Positions 29,537 through 36,222 of a DNA stretch of 64,000 nucleotides are shown here, piece after piece. The position numbers and the translations under genes were made by a program. The notes below the pieces were generated by a model that made no database searches, was not told the origin of the DNA, and saw only the letters and a list, made by a program, of their open reading frames with translations. Origin of the DNA: an uncultured Bacteroidales bacterium (GTDB taxonomy: Bacteria; Bacteroidota; Bacteroidia; Bacteroidales; Bacteroidaceae). The DNA is taken from NCBI GenBank assembly GCA_902789725.1, contig CADAPC010000001.1, positions 1 to 64,000 on the forward strand, read 5' to 3'. Positions within the stretch are counted from its first letter, which is position 1; each line of letters opens with the position of its first letter.

Positions 29537-29691
29537 CGAAAAATTCGGCTAAGTGAGAGAAAAGAACGCTTGTTTTCTTTTCCGAATGTGAGATTTTATG
29601 CAATTTCGGGGGGATTCGGCTCTTAACATGAAAGTAAATGCAGAGTTAATACGTATTTGCGGATTGTTTTTCTTGCGAATTTTTTTTCGAC

Positions 29692-29847
29692 CACGAATCT
29701 CACGAATCTCACGAATCTCTCGAATCTCTTCATGCTATTTTTTCGACCACGAACCTTTAGCTCGACGTAGTCAATCTCACGAATCTCACGAACCTTCAGC
29801 TCGACGTAGTCAATCTCACGAACCTTTGAGCTCGACGTAGTCAATCT
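29692..29847. repeat. Tandem and clustered short repeats
   Basis: A 9-base unit CACGAATCT is repeated four times with variation at about 29698-29728. Then three copies of a unit of about 30 bases (CACGAACCTTTAGCTCGACG, then TAGTCAATCT) stand at 29748-29777, 29787-29816 and 29817-29847, differing by a base or two. The lead CGACCACGAA occurs twice. No ORF crosses it with support. This fills the 414-base gap between pyrB and the HU-like gene, at the left edge of the accessory region. Unit size and lack of unique spacers exclude a CRISPR. Confidence 0.85.
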
Positions 29848-29909
29848 AACAAAACAGATGGTGGAGAAAGTCGATGCTTTCCCCACCATCCTGTGTTCGC
29901 CCTCCGCTT

Positions 29910-30509
29910 TTAAGGCTCAGAGGGCTCGTTGCCGCCCGTTGGCAATCCGCCGCCGCTGTTGCCGCCCGTGCCAGAGCTGCTCTGAGTGTCAGAGCCGCCC
30001 GACGTGCTGCCTCCCTTGGCTGCTGCAATTTCGGCCTTGGTCTTGTCCGTCCAGCTCAGCTTCACGTCCTTCTTCAGCTCTTCGCGCGTGAAGTCGCCCG
30101 TGCTCTGAGCCAGGAGCTTGATCACCTTCACCGCAGGGCCAGTCTTCTCGCCAGCCTTCAGCGTGCCGATGGAGGCAGTGGCCGTCTTGTCGGTAGCGGC
30201 ATCGTAGAGCGTCTCCAAGCCGTTGGCTTCGACCGTCGCCTTGAAGATGGCGAGGTTGTCCAGCTTGACGGTGTTGCCCCTGAGCACCATTTCGCGCACG
30301 CACTTCACGAAGTCGGTGATGACGCCCAAAATGCTGCCCTCGGAAAAGATGGTGTTGTGCTCGGCCATGTGGTGCGCCATGTCCTGGATGTTCATAGCCT
30401 GTTTGTAACTCACTCGGGCATAGAGTTTGCCCGCCTGTTCGGTGTCCGAAGTTTCGTTCACCTTGGAAAGATAAAGTTCAATCATACCTGTCAAGAATGT
30501 GTTTTTCAT
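29910..30509 (-). CDS. HU-like DNA-binding protein with low-complexity tail
   Basis: 199 aa from the ATG at 30509; the ORF opens nine codons earlier. Residues 1-120 look like the HU-like domain common in Bacteroidetes accessory regions (YARVSYKQAMNIQDMAHHMAEH, ILGVITDFVKCVREMVLRG, VKLDNLAIFKATVEANG). The C-terminus is a Gly/Ser-rich tail (KGGSTSGGSDTQSSSGTGG) that is probably disordered. Such proteins bind and bend DNA. It stands just left of the primase/helicase block and has its own promoter. Confidence 0.8.
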   Translation of the reverse strand: MKNTFLTGMIELYLSKVNETSDTEQAGKLYARVSYKQAMNIQDMAHHMAEHNTIFSEGSILGVITDFVKCVREMVLRGNTVKLDNLAIFKATVEANGLETLYDAATDKTATASIGTLKAGEKTGPAVKVIKLLAQSTGDFTREELKKDVKLSWTDKTKAEIAAAKGGSTSGGSDTQSSSGTGGNSGGGLPTGGNEPSEP

Positions 30510-30581: not shown

Positions 30582-30764
30582 CGACTTTTTTCTGAAACTA
30601 CCAAATGTTTTTCAAATTATTTTTCAGAAATTTGAACTTATTTTGTTAAAGTGATGATTAAATAGTTTTCAGCTGATAAAAGAGAAGGCGAGAGAGCCAT
30701 CGATTGACTGCTCCCTCCCCTCTCTATCTTTTCTATGATGAAGTGTTTATGCGAAAAAAACAAA

Positions 30765-30786
30765 TGCAATGCAATAATGCAATATT
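30765..30786 (+). repeat. TGCAAT repeat, left copy bounding the accessory block
   Basis: A row of TGCAAT units. Its core ATGCAATAATGCAATAT (30769-30785) is repeated exactly at 35737-35753 in the same orientation, and a close copy lies inverted at 35577-35600. It abuts the stop codon of the DUF3987 gene. Possible element end, attachment-like site or protein-binding site. Confidence 0.7.
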
Positions 30787-32782
30787 ACATCAACTTGCGG
30801 TACTTGCCTTTGTCTTCGCCCCTGTTTATTTTCTGCACGAGACCTTGGTCTTGCAAACGTTTCAAGCGGCTGCAGATGCTGCCAATTTTTCCCTCGTAAC
30901 CAAAGCAACGATCCACGTCGTCGGAGGTGAAGGGGTTGGGCAGACGGTGATACCCCAGCCATGTCTTCTTCTGATGGCGCACATTTGAAGACTGCTCAGC
31001 TGCTTGGTTGTCGTAGTGCTTTTCAAGGATGGCCTTGCAGAAATGCTCCTGGAATGCGAGTTGAGCATTGGCAATGAGAATGGCAAGACGCACGTCCTTA
31101 TGGTCCACCTTAAAGTCGGGGCCGCACTTCCACCTGCCGTCCGTGTCCTGCACCATTTTATCCCAATGGCGAGTCAAAACGAAGGGTAAAGCATTATTCG
31201 CAGAAACCCAGCAGGGACGCTTTATTAAATCCTCCTGGGCCAGATCGTGGTCCTCGCGGGCATCGTCCATGTGGTGCTTGGTCCATAGCTGCAATGCCTT
31301 GGAGATGAGTTGGCAGGGTATCTCTCCCTTGCAGTCGTTCAGCTTGTAGCACCATTCGCGCAGTTCTGCGTCACGCTTGCGGGCAGCTTCGTCGTAAGGC
31401 AGGGGTTCCAGCATTTCGAAATTGGAGTCCGCGTTGGGCACTATCGAAAAGCGCGACATAAGTCCGTTGACTATTGTCTTCTCCGAGATGATGGCTTTGG
31501 CTGCGTCCTCCGTGCCTGTATAGCAGGCATTGAAGTGCACGGGTGTCTCGCCTACTGGCGCATTTGATGTCTTGAGGTACGCTCCATGCTTCTCAGAGTG
31601 AAAAGATTTGAGCCAATAAGTCTGGAGAGCATCGAAATAGCTTTTTTTAAGCTGCGACAAGGTGTTCTGCAACTCGCTGTCGAAGATGCTGACATGGAGG
31701 TAGTACTCCTCGCCGTCAATGGTTTCGTGGGCATTGGCTTCGGCCTCGCGTAGGGCTGCTGTACTGGTCTCTGGCGGGAGTGCCCGATAGATGCCCGTCG
31801 GCCGGGGGTTCTTGCTCTTCGCACCGCCATTGTTCTGCTCGCGCTCGGCATTGCTGGCGTTCAGGGCAGCTATTTGAGGAGCATCGGACTTGTGGATGGG
31901 TTCCATCATGATTTCCTCCAGATCGACCGCCATCGACTTCATTCCACCCATGCGACCGATGAGCATCACCAAGCTGTTGAGCCTGTTCTTCTTGCCGGGT
32001 TTGGGCCAAAATTGGTAGTAGCAGCGGGTCATCAAAGTCATGGCGAAGGAGCCGCCGACGAAGAATGCGGCAGGGAAGTACTTTGGCTTGATACGGAAGC
32101 AGAGCAGCTTCAGCAGGGGGAAGTAGGGGATGAGTTTGCCGAACTCAGCCCCGATGTTCTCCAGTGTCCGCAGAATTTCCGTTTGGGCATCCGCAGCCTG
32201 TGCGAAATCGATGCCGTTTTGCTGGCGCTTCAGGGCAGAATAGTCCCGTCCCGTCACCTCCTTGATGGCTTTCCGCATGGCCTTCGAGGGCTGTGGGGCG
32301 TTAAAATTTTCACTCTCACGTTTCTGGAAAAGTTTGCGGCCACCCTCTACGAGTCGCTCAATCTCGCTCATCCCACGCTCTGCAATGAGGTCTTTCACCC
32401 ACTGGATGGTCAGCAGCTTGTTGCGCGCAAGGTCCCAGTTGCCGTCGTACAGAACGATGAGGTTGTTGAACACGTCGCGGGCAGCGTCGTGGCGGCAGTT
32501 GGGGCCGTTAGGATACATGACATTCACAAAGTCTGTGGTGTCGTAGCCACAAAACAGATACTTCTCATTGTCCTCATCCTTCGTCGGCAACAGCGCTGCC
32601 GAGTTTGGGGCAATGTCGCCGTTGGCAGCGGCTTCAGGGGTTGATGGCAGACCACCCTCTAACGAGGCCGGGGCATTGCTGGGCAGTTGGTGGTCGGAGT
32701 TGGTGGCGTGACTATCGCCTTCACGGTACGAATCGCCGAACAGACGGTCGAATACGTTCTCTGAATTTGCTTGTATAGGCAT
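30785..32782 (-). CDS. DUF3987 helicase-like protein
   Basis: 665 aa. The centre has FWPKPGKKNRLNSLVMLIGR followed by MGGMKS: residues 276-283 (GRMGGMKS) stand where DUF3987 proteins have a Walker A loop, with Met in place of the usual Gly before Lys282. A histidine/aspartate-rich region follows (EYYLHVSIFDSELQNTLSQL). DUF3987 proteins are predicted P-loop helicases found fused or next to primases in mobile elements of Bacteroidetes. The N-terminus (1-110) is Ala/Asp-rich linker. It follows the primase-like gene by 14 bases on the same strand. Confidence 0.8.
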   Translation of the reverse strand: MPIQANSENVFDRLFGDSYREGDSHATNSDHQLPSNAPASLEGGLPSTPEAAANGDIAPNSAALLPTKDEDNEKYLFCGYDTTDFVNVMYPNGPNCRHDAARDVFNNLIVLYDGNWDLARNKLLTIQWVKDLIAERGMSEIERLVEGGRKLFQKRESENFNAPQPSKAMRKAIKEVTGRDYSALKRQQNGIDFAQAADAQTEILRTLENIGAEFGKLIPYFPLLKLLCFRIKPKYFPAAFFVGGSFAMTLMTRCYYQFWPKPGKKNRLNSLVMLIGRMGGMKSMAVDLEEIMMEPIHKSDAPQIAALNASNAEREQNNGGAKSKNPRPTGIYRALPPETSTAALREAEANAHETIDGEEYYLHVSIFDSELQNTLSQLKKSYFDALQTYWLKSFHSEKHGAYLKTSNAPVGETPVHFNACYTGTEDAAKAIISEKTIVNGLMSRFSIVPNADSNFEMLEPLPYDEAARKRDAELREWCYKLNDCKGEIPCQLISKALQLWTKHHMDDAREDHDLAQEDLIKRPCWVSANNALPFVLTRHWDKMVQDTDGRWKCGPDFKVDHKDVRLAILIANAQLAFQEHFCKAILEKHYDNQAAEQSSNVRHQKKTWLGYHRLPNPFTSDDVDRCFGYEGKIGSICSRLKRLQDQGLVQKINRGEDKGKYRKLM

Positions 32783-32796
32783 TTTGCTGAAAATAT

Positions 32797-33570
32797 TTAA
32801 ACGTTAAACAATTTGTCTTCGTCGATGAAGAGAATGTCATCCAGCTGAGGGCAGAAGGAGAACTTGTCGCAGTTGATGCATGAATTGTCGGTCACATGCT
32901 TGCCCGTGGTGCCCATCACATTGAGCATTCCGAGTTCCTGAGCCTGCAGGTACTGCTGGTCGGCGATGTTGCCGCCAATTTCAGGATTCCATTCACTCAC
33001 CAACCGCAGTCCCTCGCCCGACGAGGTGATGTGAGCCAGCCTGGTCTTCCAAGGGTAGTTGGGGAGTTGAGTCTTTGAGAAGAGTTCCTTAGGGTCGAAG
33101 GGCAGATGGTCGTAGTCGCTCATGAACAGACCGCTCAGATGCTTCATGTTCTGCTGAAGGCGGCGGCGATACATGATTGGATTGCCCTGTTCGTCGAGGC
33201 GAGGGTTGCCGTCTTTGTCCATCCGAGGCACCAGTCCAAATTCATTTACTCCGAAGATGAACCCCGGCAGGGAGGCCTTCAGCTCATCGGCCCACTGCAA
33301 CAGCCTCAGTGCCGTGGGTTTCGCCTCAAAATCCTTGCCAGCGCGTGGCTTGGCCAACTGCTTGGTGCACCATCGCTGATAGTCGTCGCGGCGTGTCCAC
33401 TCGTCGAGGGGCAACCCTTCGCGCACAGCCTTCCTGATGGCACGTCTTGTGTTGATTTTCCAATGCACATGGGCGCTGCGCACTAAGGGGTGGAAAACGT
33501 CAGCTGTGCATGGCTCGCAGGATGCCCAGTAGAGGTTCTCCTGCCAAACAAATCTCCAATTCTTTCCCAT
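32797..33570 (-). CDS. BT4734-type primase-like protein
   Basis: 257 aa. HLSGLFMSDYDHLPFDPKEL carries Asp152 and Asp154 as an hhhDhD motif and TSSGEGLRLV (about 182-191) stands where archaeo-eukaryotic primases have the SxGxH/R motif. The end has CINCDKFSFCPQLDDILFID. This matches the BT4734 (VirE N-terminal) family, classed with AEP primases. In many genomes the domain is fused to DUF3987; here the two are separate neighbouring genes. The N-terminal 110 residues, with WRFVWQENLYWASCEPC, are not typical of the family. Role inferred: priming replication of an element. Confidence 0.78.
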   Translation of the reverse strand: MGKNWRFVWQENLYWASCEPCTADVFHPLVRSAHVHWKINTRRAIRKAVREGLPLDEWTRRDDYQRWCTKQLAKPRAGKDFEAKPTALRLLQWADELKASLPGFIFGVNEFGLVPRMDKDGNPRLDEQGNPIMYRRRLQQNMKHLSGLFMSDYDHLPFDPKELFSKTQLPNYPWKTRLAHITSSGEGLRLVSEWNPEIGGNIADQQYLQAQELGMLNVMGTTGKHVTDNSCINCDKFSFCPQLDDILFIDEDKLFNV

Positions 33571-33578
33571 AACGTATT

Positions 33579-33595
33579 ATTATTAGAACATACCT
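33579..33595. repeat. 17-base match to the oadB MITE terminus
   Basis: ATTATTAGAACATACCT is identical, in reverse, to 49230-49246, the left inverted-repeat end of the element in oadB. No second end is seen nearby, so it may be a remnant or a chance match. Confidence 0.5.
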
Positions 33596-34104
33596 TTAAC
33601 TTGATGGTTACTATTAATAATTGTTTCTCGGTTTTTGCCTATGCACACGCTCATCAGGCTCTGTGCCTGCAGAAGTTGACGCTCAATGCTGCTGTTGCAG
33701 TCCAGTTCGGTCAGGATGCTCACCTTGCCTCGCTCGCTGTCAAGCCAAATTTTCACATTTTGGCCATTGTCCAGCAGCATGCGCCCATCACTGCCTTCGG
33801 GTAGTTTCGGCATTTGCTTGCGCTGCGCCTCCGTCAGGTGGAGAAACTGAGCGAGGAGCTCAGCCACGGGGTCTTCTGTCTTGCCGTCGCAGTTGAGGTG
33901 TACGCTCCAACTCGACTGCTTCTCCCCCTCGGTACGATAGAAGGATGAGTCGCCGAGTTGTCTGAGCATGGTGCGGTTACTGGGCTTTGTGCCCACGGGA
34001 ATGAACTCGCGGTATCCGTTGGACCATTCGTTGAGTTTTCCCTTTGTCGTCATGTCCGGCTTTGTCTTCGGTCGGGTGACGTAAGTGATTGTGTCTGTTG
34101 TCAT
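33583..34104 (-). CDS. Unknown protein, 173 aa, of the accessory block
   Basis: I do not recognise a family. The protein starts MTTDTITYVTRPKTKPDM, is polar, has no signal peptide or membrane segment, and contains EDPVAELLAQFLHLTEAQRK and VSILTELDCNSSIERQLLQA, both likely helices. Its last codons and stop (GGT ATG TTC TAA) lie in a 17-base stretch identical to the end of the MITE in oadB. It precedes the primase-like gene by 12 bases and follows the TTCTCACA cluster; promoter at 34163. Confidence 0.65.
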   Translation of the reverse strand: MTTDTITYVTRPKTKPDMTTKGKLNEWSNGYREFIPVGTKPSNRTMLRQLGDSSFYRTEGEKQSSWSVHLNCDGKTEDPVAELLAQFLHLTEAQRKQMPKLPEGSDGRMLLDNGQNVKIWLDSERGKVSILTELDCNSSIERQLLQAQSLMSVCIGKNRETIINSNHQVKGMF

Positions 34105-34162
34105 ATTTAAATACAGTAATAAATAATAAAAAAAAGGTGGAAATCATTTCTGAAATCCACCG

Positions 34163-34170
34163 CAAAGGTA
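34163..34170 (-). promoter_or_regulatory. Promoter -7 box for the 173-aa gene and primase/helicase genes
   Basis: Reverse complement TACCTTTG, 58 bases before the ATG at 34104. The TTCTCACA cluster lies 35-85 bases upstream of it, a place suited to an operator. Confidence 0.5.
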
Positions 34171-34204
34171 CAGGTAATATTTGATATTATGATAAGATTT
34201 TTGT

Positions 34205-34256
34205 TTCTCACAACTTCTCACAGGGTTGTGAGAAATTTCTCACAGGGTTTCTCACA
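34205..34256. repeat. Iteron-like TTCTCACA cluster with a perfect palindrome
   Basis: TTCTCACA occurs in direct orientation at 34205, 34215, 34237 and 34249 and in reverse within TGTGAGAAATTTCTCACA at 34227-34244, a perfect 18-base palindrome. Spacings of 10, 22 and 12 are near whole turns of the helix. It sits between the stop of the 418-aa gene and the promoter of the 173-aa gene. It could be a replication-initiator iteron array, a repressor operator or, less well, a terminator, as no T run follows. Confidence 0.75.
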
Positions 34257-34258
34257 AC

Positions 34259-35515
34259 CTAAAGCCTCATTTTCATTCCTAAAGTCTCCAATTTAGTATT
34301 CAATTCTTTGATATCTGTTTTGTGCGATTCGCGGTTCAGGTCAAGTTGGCTGCAATAATTTTCGCATACCTTATGTGTGATGCCCGTAATGGCTTGCAGC
34401 ACTTCTGCTGCCCTGGCCTTATTGCCTCTTTTCTCCAGGTCGGCGCCGTTTATCGTCATCATTTTGAGCACAAATGCCATGCGCACCTTGTTGCTGTAAC
34501 CGCTCGCCCCCTTCTCCATGCCTTCCAGCTTCTCGTCCAGGGCGGCGCTGAGATGGGCGATTTCTTGCTCTTTCTCCTCGATGGTGAGCTGCAGCTGCTG
34601 GATTTCCTCCTTCTGCTGCTCGATGGTGGGCTGTGCCTGCTGCAAGTCCTCGTGATGGTCCTTGTGGGCTTGGAGTTGGCGGATTTCACTCATCAGTTTC
34701 TTGTTCAACTGCTCCAGCTCTTTGATGCGCTGTTCAGCAGCTGTACTGGTGCTGGCTTCCTCTTCTTTTGTATCTTTTTCTTCTGAAATCCGCTCTAAAT
34801 ATTCAACACCCTGCTGTAGAACGTCTGCATAGGAATTATAGGTGGTTCCTCCATTCGTTAATCTATGTATGATGGGTTTCACTCTTTCTATTAACAGGAG
34901 TTCTTTTCCTTCTATTTTCGACCGGCTAATTAGATACCCTAACCCTCCTGCTATGGTTGAATCTGCGATGGCATCGTTGCAGATGTCAGACAACTCGCGG
35001 GGTTTGAAGTCAATGGCACAAAAGTTGGAAATTTGCGGTGAGGGTATGATTATCAGTCCGTAAAAATCCCTTTTCCCCCCAGCTAATCCTTTTTTATCCC
35101 AATCTGCAAATTTGTCATAAATTTTTTTCTTCAATATGGCTGATTCAGGGTTAGCAGAAAGAGCATCAATATGATTCAACCAATTATACACAAGTGCCAT
35201 CGTGGCCGGGAACATGTGGTAGCTCCAGAGGGGGCTCCCAAAGTTGTGCGATGTAATTTCGTAATACGGTCTCAAATATTGGACAGGATGTTCCGCCAGG
35301 CAAATGAGCGTGACGATATAGGCTGCGTTATTAAATATGTGCGGAATTAGGGAGTCCGCGTAGAGGTTTTCGACATTTTCATATAAAAATGGTCGGGCAA
35401 CCAAGCGTGTGTAAAACTCATGTTCCAGTGTGCCTTGATTAGAGATGCCGAAGTCATTAATGTCATTTTTTCTCTTGTAGATCAGTACTTCTGATATTTT
35501 TGTATAATCCATCAT
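34259..35515 (-). CDS. Unknown protein with coiled coil, 418 aa
   Basis: The ATG at 35515 (MMDYTKISEVLIYKRKNDIN) is the likely start, as the ORF upstream is AT-rich and overlaps the promoter. Residues 1-240 are a globular part I cannot assign. Residues 250-335 are a long coiled coil (EQRIKELEQLNKKLMSEIRQ and further heptads). The C-terminal 80 residues, with AFVLKMMTINGADLEKRGNK and ARAAEVLQAITGITHKV, look like a small helical domain that I have seen no name for. No signal peptide. Codon use is more AT-rich than in neighbouring housekeeping genes. A replication or partition role is possible from context only. Confidence 0.7.
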   Translation of the reverse strand: MMDYTKISEVLIYKRKNDINDFGISNQGTLEHEFYTRLVARPFLYENVENLYADSLIPHIFNNAAYIVTLICLAEHPVQYLRPYYEITSHNFGSPLWSYHMFPATMALVYNWLNHIDALSANPESAILKKKIYDKFADWDKKGLAGGKRDFYGLIIIPSPQISNFCAIDFKPRELSDICNDAIADSTIAGGLGYLISRSKIEGKELLLIERVKPIIHRLTNGGTTYNSYADVLQQGVEYLERISEEKDTKEEEASTSTAAEQRIKELEQLNKKLMSEIRQLQAHKDHHEDLQQAQPTIEQQKEEIQQLQLTIEEKEQEIAHLSAALDEKLEGMEKGASGYSNKVRMAFVLKMMTINGADLEKRGNKARAAEVLQAITGITHKVCENYCSQLDLNRESHKTDIKELNTKLETLGMKMRL

Positions 35516-35539
35516 TTTGTTTTTTTTATAATTCATTGG

Positions 35540-35547
35540 CAAAATTA
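35540..35547 (-). promoter_or_regulatory. Promoter -7 box for the 418-aa gene
   Basis: Reverse complement TAATTTTG, 25 bases before the ATG at 35515. The inverted TGCAAT repeat (35577-35600) lies some 30-60 bases upstream. Confidence 0.45.
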
Positions 35548-35576
35548 CAACTTTTTTTTTATCAGCACAAACCTTT

Positions 35577-35600
35577 ATATTGCAATATTGCATTGCATTT
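35577..35600 (-). repeat. Inverted TGCAAT repeat
   Basis: In reverse this reads AAATGCAATGCAATATTGCA and on, matching 30762-30785 at all but two positions. It is in opposite orientation to the left copy, upstream of the promoter at 35540. Confidence 0.7.
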
Positions 35601-35736
35601 CATTTTTTTAGTTTTGAAGGAAAAATTAAAGTGTTAAAAAAGTATAAAATATTTATATAATATATTAAAATATAATTACTTATAATAATTATACCTACAT
35701 TTCTTCCAATCCACCAGTTCCAGAAAAAAAAAGAAA

Positions 35737-35753
35737 ATGCAATAATGCAATAT
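35737..35753 (+). repeat. TGCAAT direct repeat, right copy
   Basis: ATGCAATAATGCAATAT, identical to 30769-30785. Together they bound 4,985 bases. The stretch from here back to 35600 is very AT-rich and has no gene. Confidence 0.7.
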
Positions 35754-35824: not shown

Positions 35825-35866
35825 CCTTATTCCGCAATAAGCGAACCTTATTCCATAATAAGCGAG
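35825..35866. repeat. Two tandem 21-base palindromic units
   Basis: CCTTATTCCGCAATAAGCGA and CCTTATTCCATAATAAGCGA, each plus one base, are tandem copies; each contains CTTATTCC..AATAAG that can form a small hairpin. A weaker third piece precedes them. The MITE at 35867 is inserted at the end of the second unit. Confidence 0.7.
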
Positions 35867-36050
35867 TTCAAGTTTCGCAAGCTCATCATACCATTGGTTT
35901 CCAGGTCGCTGCGCTCAAAATTATACAAAAATTTATTCAAAAAATTAGATGAACTGCCCGGATGGCGTAGCCTTTTGATAATTTTCTTATTCAATTTTCT
36001 TATCATTTTGAGGCCGCAGGCCGACCCATGTAGAACAACCGAAACTTGTG
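35867..36050 (-). mobile_element. MITE-like element A, left copy (184 bp)
   Basis: Non-coding. It is flanked by the 8-base direct repeat TAAGCGAG (35859-35866 and 36051-36058) and has imperfect terminal inverted repeats with the common core CAAGTTTCG. It matches, in inverted orientation, the copy at 38531-38690 almost base for base apart from a 24-base stretch present only here near 35920-35955. It contains the small hairpin GGCCGCAGGCC. No transposase: it would depend on one elsewhere in the genome. It lies upstream of the glnN promoter. Confidence 0.85.
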
Positions 36051-36222
36051 TAAGCGAGCCTTTTTCCATGATAAGGAGGGCCTTATTAGAAAGAATCAAC
36101 ATCGTCTTGCTGGAGAATACTGCTCATGAATGAATCATTCATATTCTATTTTTTTGCCTACTTAAATGAATGATGTTTACATTTTTTTGTCCTGACTGAC
36201 TTAAAAATACAAGATTTTTATC

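Follow-up and report, generated by a model that had tools for sequence, protein, structure and literature searches.

Within the 64,000-nucleotide stretch of Bacteroidaceae DNA analysed here (the window), the block at 30754-35753 belongs to a group of at least 22 loci that share one layout, and we propose that it is probably an integrative primase-helicase replicon located upstream of HU genes, with an origin between two repeat sites called A and B, termini at sites A and C, and no recombinase of its own. The preliminary description of this DNA had seen the replication core of a mobile-type element ending at its repeats, a view which the comparison of loci supports; it had also considered a fixed lone remnant, which the existence of the other loci contradicts. 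These loci appear to form a family of small rumen-Prevotella elements that is apparently undescribed so far, and no description of their three-site plan was found in a limited search of open papers.

In the window, exact copies of the 17-mer ATGCAATAATGCAATAT at 30769-30785 and 35737-35753 bound four minus-strand ORFs (665, 257, 173 and 418-444 aa), and an inverted copy with one mismatch lies at 35577-35593, which confirms the first observation. The whole 3.2-Mb genome contains three copies at two or fewer mismatches, those of sites A, B and C, so that the repeats do not occur all over the genome; at three or fewer mismatches, four were counted in the window against a mean of 0.22 over 100 shuffled versions of it. 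The left and inner-right copies are parts of a longer, 32-nt inverted repeat (30754-30785 / 35577-35608, 91% complementary). We named the sites C (after the last gene, starting directly 3' of the hel stop codon), B (inverted, inner) and A (outer). The simple direct repeats of the earlier reading are therefore real copies, but they belong to a three-site system in which A and B enclose an origin-like module and C marks the far end. The features are as follows.

30754-35753: whole block (element), C through A
30754-30785, unstranded: site C, right boundary of the element, with three TTGCA-type units and a T-tract
30785-32782, minus strand: hel, 665-aa DUF3987-like AAA+ protein (predicted helicase)
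32797-33570, minus strand: pri, 257-aa archaeo-eukaryotic-type primase (BT4734_N)
33583-34104, minus strand: u173, conserved ~170-aa protein (173 aa)
34205-34256, unstranded: five TTCTCACA repeats, 5' of u173 (pattern search and shuffles)
34259-35515, minus strand: u418, coiled-coil protein in the variable slot
35540-35547, minus strand: TAATTTTG, Bacteroidota-type -7 promoter box of the operon, picked out by eye
35577-35608, unstranded: site B, in inverted orientation, bounding the origin-like module on its inner side
35609-35723, unstranded: A-B spacer, putative origin, with an AT-rich core kept across elements
35724-35753, unstranded: site A, outer (left) boundary, a copy of C in the same orientation
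29910-30485 (end approximate), minus strand: HU-HIG gene, outside C, 5' end toward the element

The core common to all 22 loci consists of the AEP primase and the DUF3987-like helicase, nearly always preceded by a ~170-aa u173-type protein, and the gene order u173-pri-hel is retained in most full-length close relatives; no u173 match was obtained by tblastn in L043, L046 and the more distant L052-L057. Of the four-gene core initially proposed, hel and pri (and nearly always u173) are thus kept, while the 418-aa gene sits in a variable slot. As had been recognised from the letters, pri is a BT4734-type AEP primase: it matches BT4734_N (E 1.3e-6) and the D152/D154 pair of its catalytic hDhD motif is an invariant DxD among relatives. 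In structural comparison of its AF2 model (pLDDT 92.7), AEP structures hold most top ranks (best AEP Z 6.3, rmsd 4.6, 135 aligned), a moderate support for the fold since the best AEP Z is below 8. The DUF3987 assignment of hel is more indirect, as 2 of 20 hel relatives reach this family (best E 1.8e-4) but the window protein has no Pfam match; hel is, judging by its relatives, probably a distant relative of the DUF3987 group and a predicted helicase. Its Walker A lysine is invariant and the glutamate of FDSEL is retained; GK[S/T] is altered in many members, residues 276-283 reading GRMGGMKS in the window clade and GRMGSGK[H/Q] in many members. This degenerate Walker A, in which the usual S/T or G is lost, counts against the replicon reading. 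The C-terminal segment of hel is winged-helix-like, with weak PadR/TrmB matches. No family match was found for u173, and the structure prediction suggested for it at the outset was unproductive: its AF2 model is unreliable (pTM 0.37) and neither Foldseek nor VIA found a usable match (best Z 4.0, confined to the C-terminal part).

The family comparison covered 22 distinct loci of rumen Prevotellaceae, most of them from metagenome-assembled genomes with short flanks. For each locus, the 130 bp 3' of hel were searched against the upstream region, with shuffled controls. Site C is present after hel in all 22 loci and site B in 22/22, with 21-26 of 26 matches (shuffled maximum 17-21); site A was found by script in 20 of the 21 testable loci and by eye in L149, L050 being excluded from this test because a contig end cuts the locus. 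Wherever A is present, the A-B distance is 136-169 bp. The repeats are made of about three short units, usually TTGCA, and the odd units of L051 (TTGG), L146 (TTGA) and L148 (GTGCA) are each shared by A, B and C of their locus. One genome (G869) carries two elements, L147 (equal to L042) and L148, with different repeat units, so the repeat belongs to the element and not to the host. What recurs in relatives is the core and the three-site layout, and not the same four genes with the same repeats, for which the preliminary description had proposed to look: the repeat sequence and the u418 slot differ. Setting repeat specificity against residues of hel, pri and u173 at the three odd loci gave no conclusive residue assignment. 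Pairwise DNA homology between elements spans pri-hel and usually stops ~25-50 bp past hel, at the outer edge of C (it reaches up to 113 bp past hel in L038, where extra repeats precede C), then picks up again at A on the other side, as expected from defined ends.

REP-like intergenic sequences (GCTCGGCATA...CTCTGC type) adjoin the edges of the three sites in some loci. They lie both outside A and before C in L038 and L143, after B in L034, and outside A in L035 and L036. In L038 and L143, the REP-like sequence apparently lies within the repeat, with part of the repeat duplicated. This arrangement looks as if the A/B/C sites were prone to nicking.

The A-B module contains no gene and is alignable over 20 elements, in the order A units, purine-rich tract, AT core (TATTATATAAGTATTTATATATTAATATATTATATA type), pyrimidine-rich tract, AAAAATGAA and inverted B units, with a middle that is 69-82% AT. 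As a single strand it folds better than shuffled sequences in every case (z -2.7 to -10.2), a signal of which the A/B inverted repeat itself supplies much, and a Bacteroidota-type promoter box is found 3' of B in most loci. By this layout, head-to-head sites around an AT-rich dyad, the module looks like a bidirectional origin and we consider it as a putative one.

The HU-like gene noticed outside the left end of the block is confirmed and is indeed outside, but across loci it is a near-constant neighbour on either side. An HU-HIG gene lies just outside one end, its 5' end facing the element, in 16 of the 18 informative loci, equally frequently on the C side (window, L035, L036, L038, L042, L043, L146, L151) and on the A side (L039, L040, L041, L047, L049, L148, L149, L150), mostly at less than 0.5 kb (1.7-1.9 kb in L041 and L150). 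L046 has a weak HU match in the other orientation, HU is absent from the flanking DNA available for L048, and the count omits L034, L050, L051, L143 and L144, whose flanks are truncated. With 13 HU-type matches in the 3.2 Mb of the window's own genome, adjacency by chance would be rare. Members of one HU subfamily adjoin C in the window, L035 and L151 but A in L049 (the hel proteins of L151 and L049 are ~48-50% identical to that of the window), and conservation of the promoter region of this subfamily begins at the same position whether or not the copy bears an element. Since the same HU subfamily and promoter accompany divergent elements in opposite orientations, the region 5' of HU resembles a landing site that is used repeatedly; a functional link between element and HU is conceivable as well. 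Two other views were rejected: HU-upstream DNA as a general hot spot, because the other twelve HU-type loci of the own genome are mostly without such a module alongside, and HU as part of the A..C unit, because it lies outside the ends and on either side. Separately, multi-copy HU-HIG genes of the window subfamily were seen to follow CHC2-type primase genes in L118, L119 and L121 (genomes G406 and G388), frequently where a contig ends, and in L120 a RAYT gene resembling the L048 cargo adjoins HU.

The slot between B and the core, 5' of u173, varies between loci and includes restriction-modification systems: MmeI-type enzymes in L039 (by Pfam) and in L050, L144, L146 and L148 (by clear resemblance), and an MvaI/BcnI endonuclease with a methylase in L051. 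Elsewhere the cargo is a TnpB/Cas12f-like RuvC protein (L040, -5194 to -3788 relative to hel), a RAYT-like protein (L048, by eye) or unrecognised genes. L048 further carries a GmrSD-type protein and an EcoRI-type methylase outside A, yet inside a further inverted repeat copy. Two alternative accessory types were distinguished by eye 5' of u173, either a u418-like coiled-coil protein (window, L036, L046, L051 and others, L036, L046 and L051 being distant relatives) or a two-gene type (L035, L038-L041, L043, L143, L148). The first reading of the window had noted the lack of integrase, transfer and capsid genes. In agreement with it, none of the ORFs listed between A and C, whatever the slot, could be recognised as an integrase, serine recombinase, relaxase or capsid gene; the conserved gene set includes no transposase, and no recombinase was detected when the core and ten cargo genes were scanned with Pfam. 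At L145, a cluster of Dcm-type and EcoRI-type methylases was observed to the left of A and directly outside it, an arrangement also seen in L048; restriction-modification genes may thus have arrived more than once beside element ends.

The five TTCTCACA copies of the window all lie inside 34205-34256 (52 bp) at 10-12-bp spacing, an arrangement seen in 0/200 shuffles. The cluster pointed out in the preliminary description is present, but it is a second, element-specific repeat set whose sequence was not found in relatives. Clusters of other 7-mers occupy the equivalent place in L051 (GACACCC), L039 (TAGTAAA), L146 (ATACAAA) and L042 (CGAATTA), with P 0.000-0.005, uncorrected for 20 loci. Such a cluster is a possible element-specific operator or second initiator/iteron site.

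Relatives of hel occur in 49 of 399 host-family genomes at E <= 1e-5, many of them distant, and 12 loci were retrieved from genome contigs. Within the family, u173 was detected in another genus (15 of 139 genomes), and in no other genome among 393 sampled from the order; so far it has been seen only in the host family. None of the searched proteins had a relative among 50,697 phage and 72,556 plasmid records (tblastn and pattern scans of hel or u173), and viral contigs gave one distant hel relative only, for which reason a phage, plasmid or viral origin was rejected. Presence is patchy and at different places instead of the same place in all relatives: the window element lies at pyrB/GS3, others at atpG, uvrA, clpB or thiL (gene names by eye). 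In two same-genus genomes (G155 and G197) the GS3 protein is 94-96% identical, yet hel is ~60% and 78% identical; in a third (G250) hel is 54% identical. In two congeners the interval from pyrB to GS3 measures ~220 bp and contains neither HU nor the block; this empty interval is one between species, and HU and the surrounding repeats differ there too. The divergence of hel against the near-identity of GS3, together with this gap, fits independent acquisition. No base-precise empty site was found through the flanks of L046, L047 and L048, which are unconserved or cut by contig ends, and neither an excised form nor a strain-level empty site nor a target duplication was seen, which counts against the replicon reading. 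As in integrative elements generally, the ends are defined and bear repeats and presence is patchy at unrelated sites; an integrase-bearing element would have its own tyrosine or serine recombinase, which is not seen between A and C, and nothing recognised here (no integrase, packaging or helper-exploitation gene, no phage relatives) places the block among phage satellites.

We suggest that hel, perhaps also u173, would bind the head-to-head repeat arrays A and B and melt the AT-rich dyad between them, where the primase could begin copying. A and C, in the same orientation, would mark the two ends of the element and, being equally oriented, their joining would yield a circle with a complete origin. 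Insertion may take place just 5' of HU-HIG genes, in either orientation, by an enzyme or repair route encoded outside the element, the candidates for excision and insertion being a helper recombinase acting in trans and a replication-coupled route. Restriction-modification and other cargo would help the element to persist. A stronger version, which we regard as rather unlikely, would make these elements a class whose mobility is replication-driven, of a single-strand type, and needs no classical recombinase or transposase. Insertion beside HU-HIG genes would then rely on the primase-helicase of the element, on u173 and on terminal repeat arrays that co-evolve with them, the A-B dyad serving as origin and C as terminus.

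In an alternative reading, a satellite-type element with the same core would leave its excision, integration and transfer to a recombinase (e.g. tyrosine) of a co-resident phage, conjugative element or host, which acts in trans on the A/C repeats. This is possible, if somewhat doubtful: a conserved gene set without recombinase, direct repeats at both ends and a pairing of AEP primase and DUF3987-type helicase typical of integrated mobile elements (PMC5862659) all speak for it, but a fixed helper should impose one recognition sequence, whereas the repeats differ even within one genome, and the phage and plasmid records searched held no relative, with a single distant viral contig besides. A different view would treat the primase-helicase-cargo cassette as a passenger of HU-HIG hot spots, exchanged solely by homologous recombination between conserved stretches of HU and adjacent DNA, with A, B and C as regulatory or replication relics. 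The HU promoter region is indeed conserved beside different elements, and beside a CHC2-type primase and RAYT at element-free copies; against this, HU occurs on either side and belongs to different paralogues, homology stops sharply at C instead of running through the flanks, and A, B and C remain matched within every locus, which makes the passenger view improbable. It is very unlikely, finally, that the repeats merely serve transcription, as operators or terminators of an ordinary operon of the chromosome. Although B lies just 5' of the operon promoter and C at the operon end, ahead of a hairpin terminator, no operon promoter adjoins A or C, the A-B spacing and AT-rich core are conserved, most relatives are without the operon, and homology stops at the sites.

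Integrated elements that pair PrimPol-PV1 primases with DUF3987/VirE/DUF927 helicases have been described (Kazlauskas et al. 2018, PMC5862659) and are bounded by att repeats, the product of tyrosine or serine integrases. The block family shares with them an AEP primase, a predicted helicase that is putatively of DUF3987 type, integration and direct-repeat bounds, but has no integrase and carries three-site element-specific repeats beside HU genes. The fused BT4734/DUF3987 loci of Bacteroidales (L052, L054, L055, L056) encode a homologous primase-helicase as one polypeptide; unlike in the block family, conserved A/B/C sites and u173 were not found there. P4-like satellites, PICI and PICMI encode an integrase and use phage packaging. 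They resemble the block family in being small and integrated, with a primase-helicase core and variable defence cargo, but neither integrase nor phage packaging is seen in the latter. Tn7-like transposons (PMC8649781) likewise combine defence cargo with preferred landing beside a conserved gene type, whereas the block family is without TnsA/B/C-like genes, has another end structure and is found in either orientation.

If our reading is true, a whole family of defence-carrying rumen Prevotella elements has been overlooked because searches depend on integrases, relaxases or phage genes. The question whether an AEP primase-helicase replicon can integrate without its own recombinase would become directly testable; element-specific repeats matched at three sites offer a handle for finding the DNA-binding initiator, and the HU-HIG link suggests that these HU paralogues, abundant but little studied, act as landing sites or as partners.

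Other repeats were noted around the block. PINSR, a 188-bp Prevotella repeat (PMC4755523), was rejected as a match, being a different repeat and high-copy. Just outside A, window positions 35853-36053 hold a dispersed ~200-bp repeat with 87-98% identical copies at several further places in the own genome, and the pyrB-HU interval (29682-29856) contains short tandem repeats (CACGAATCT; CGACGTAGTCAATCT), some copies of which occur elsewhere in the genome.
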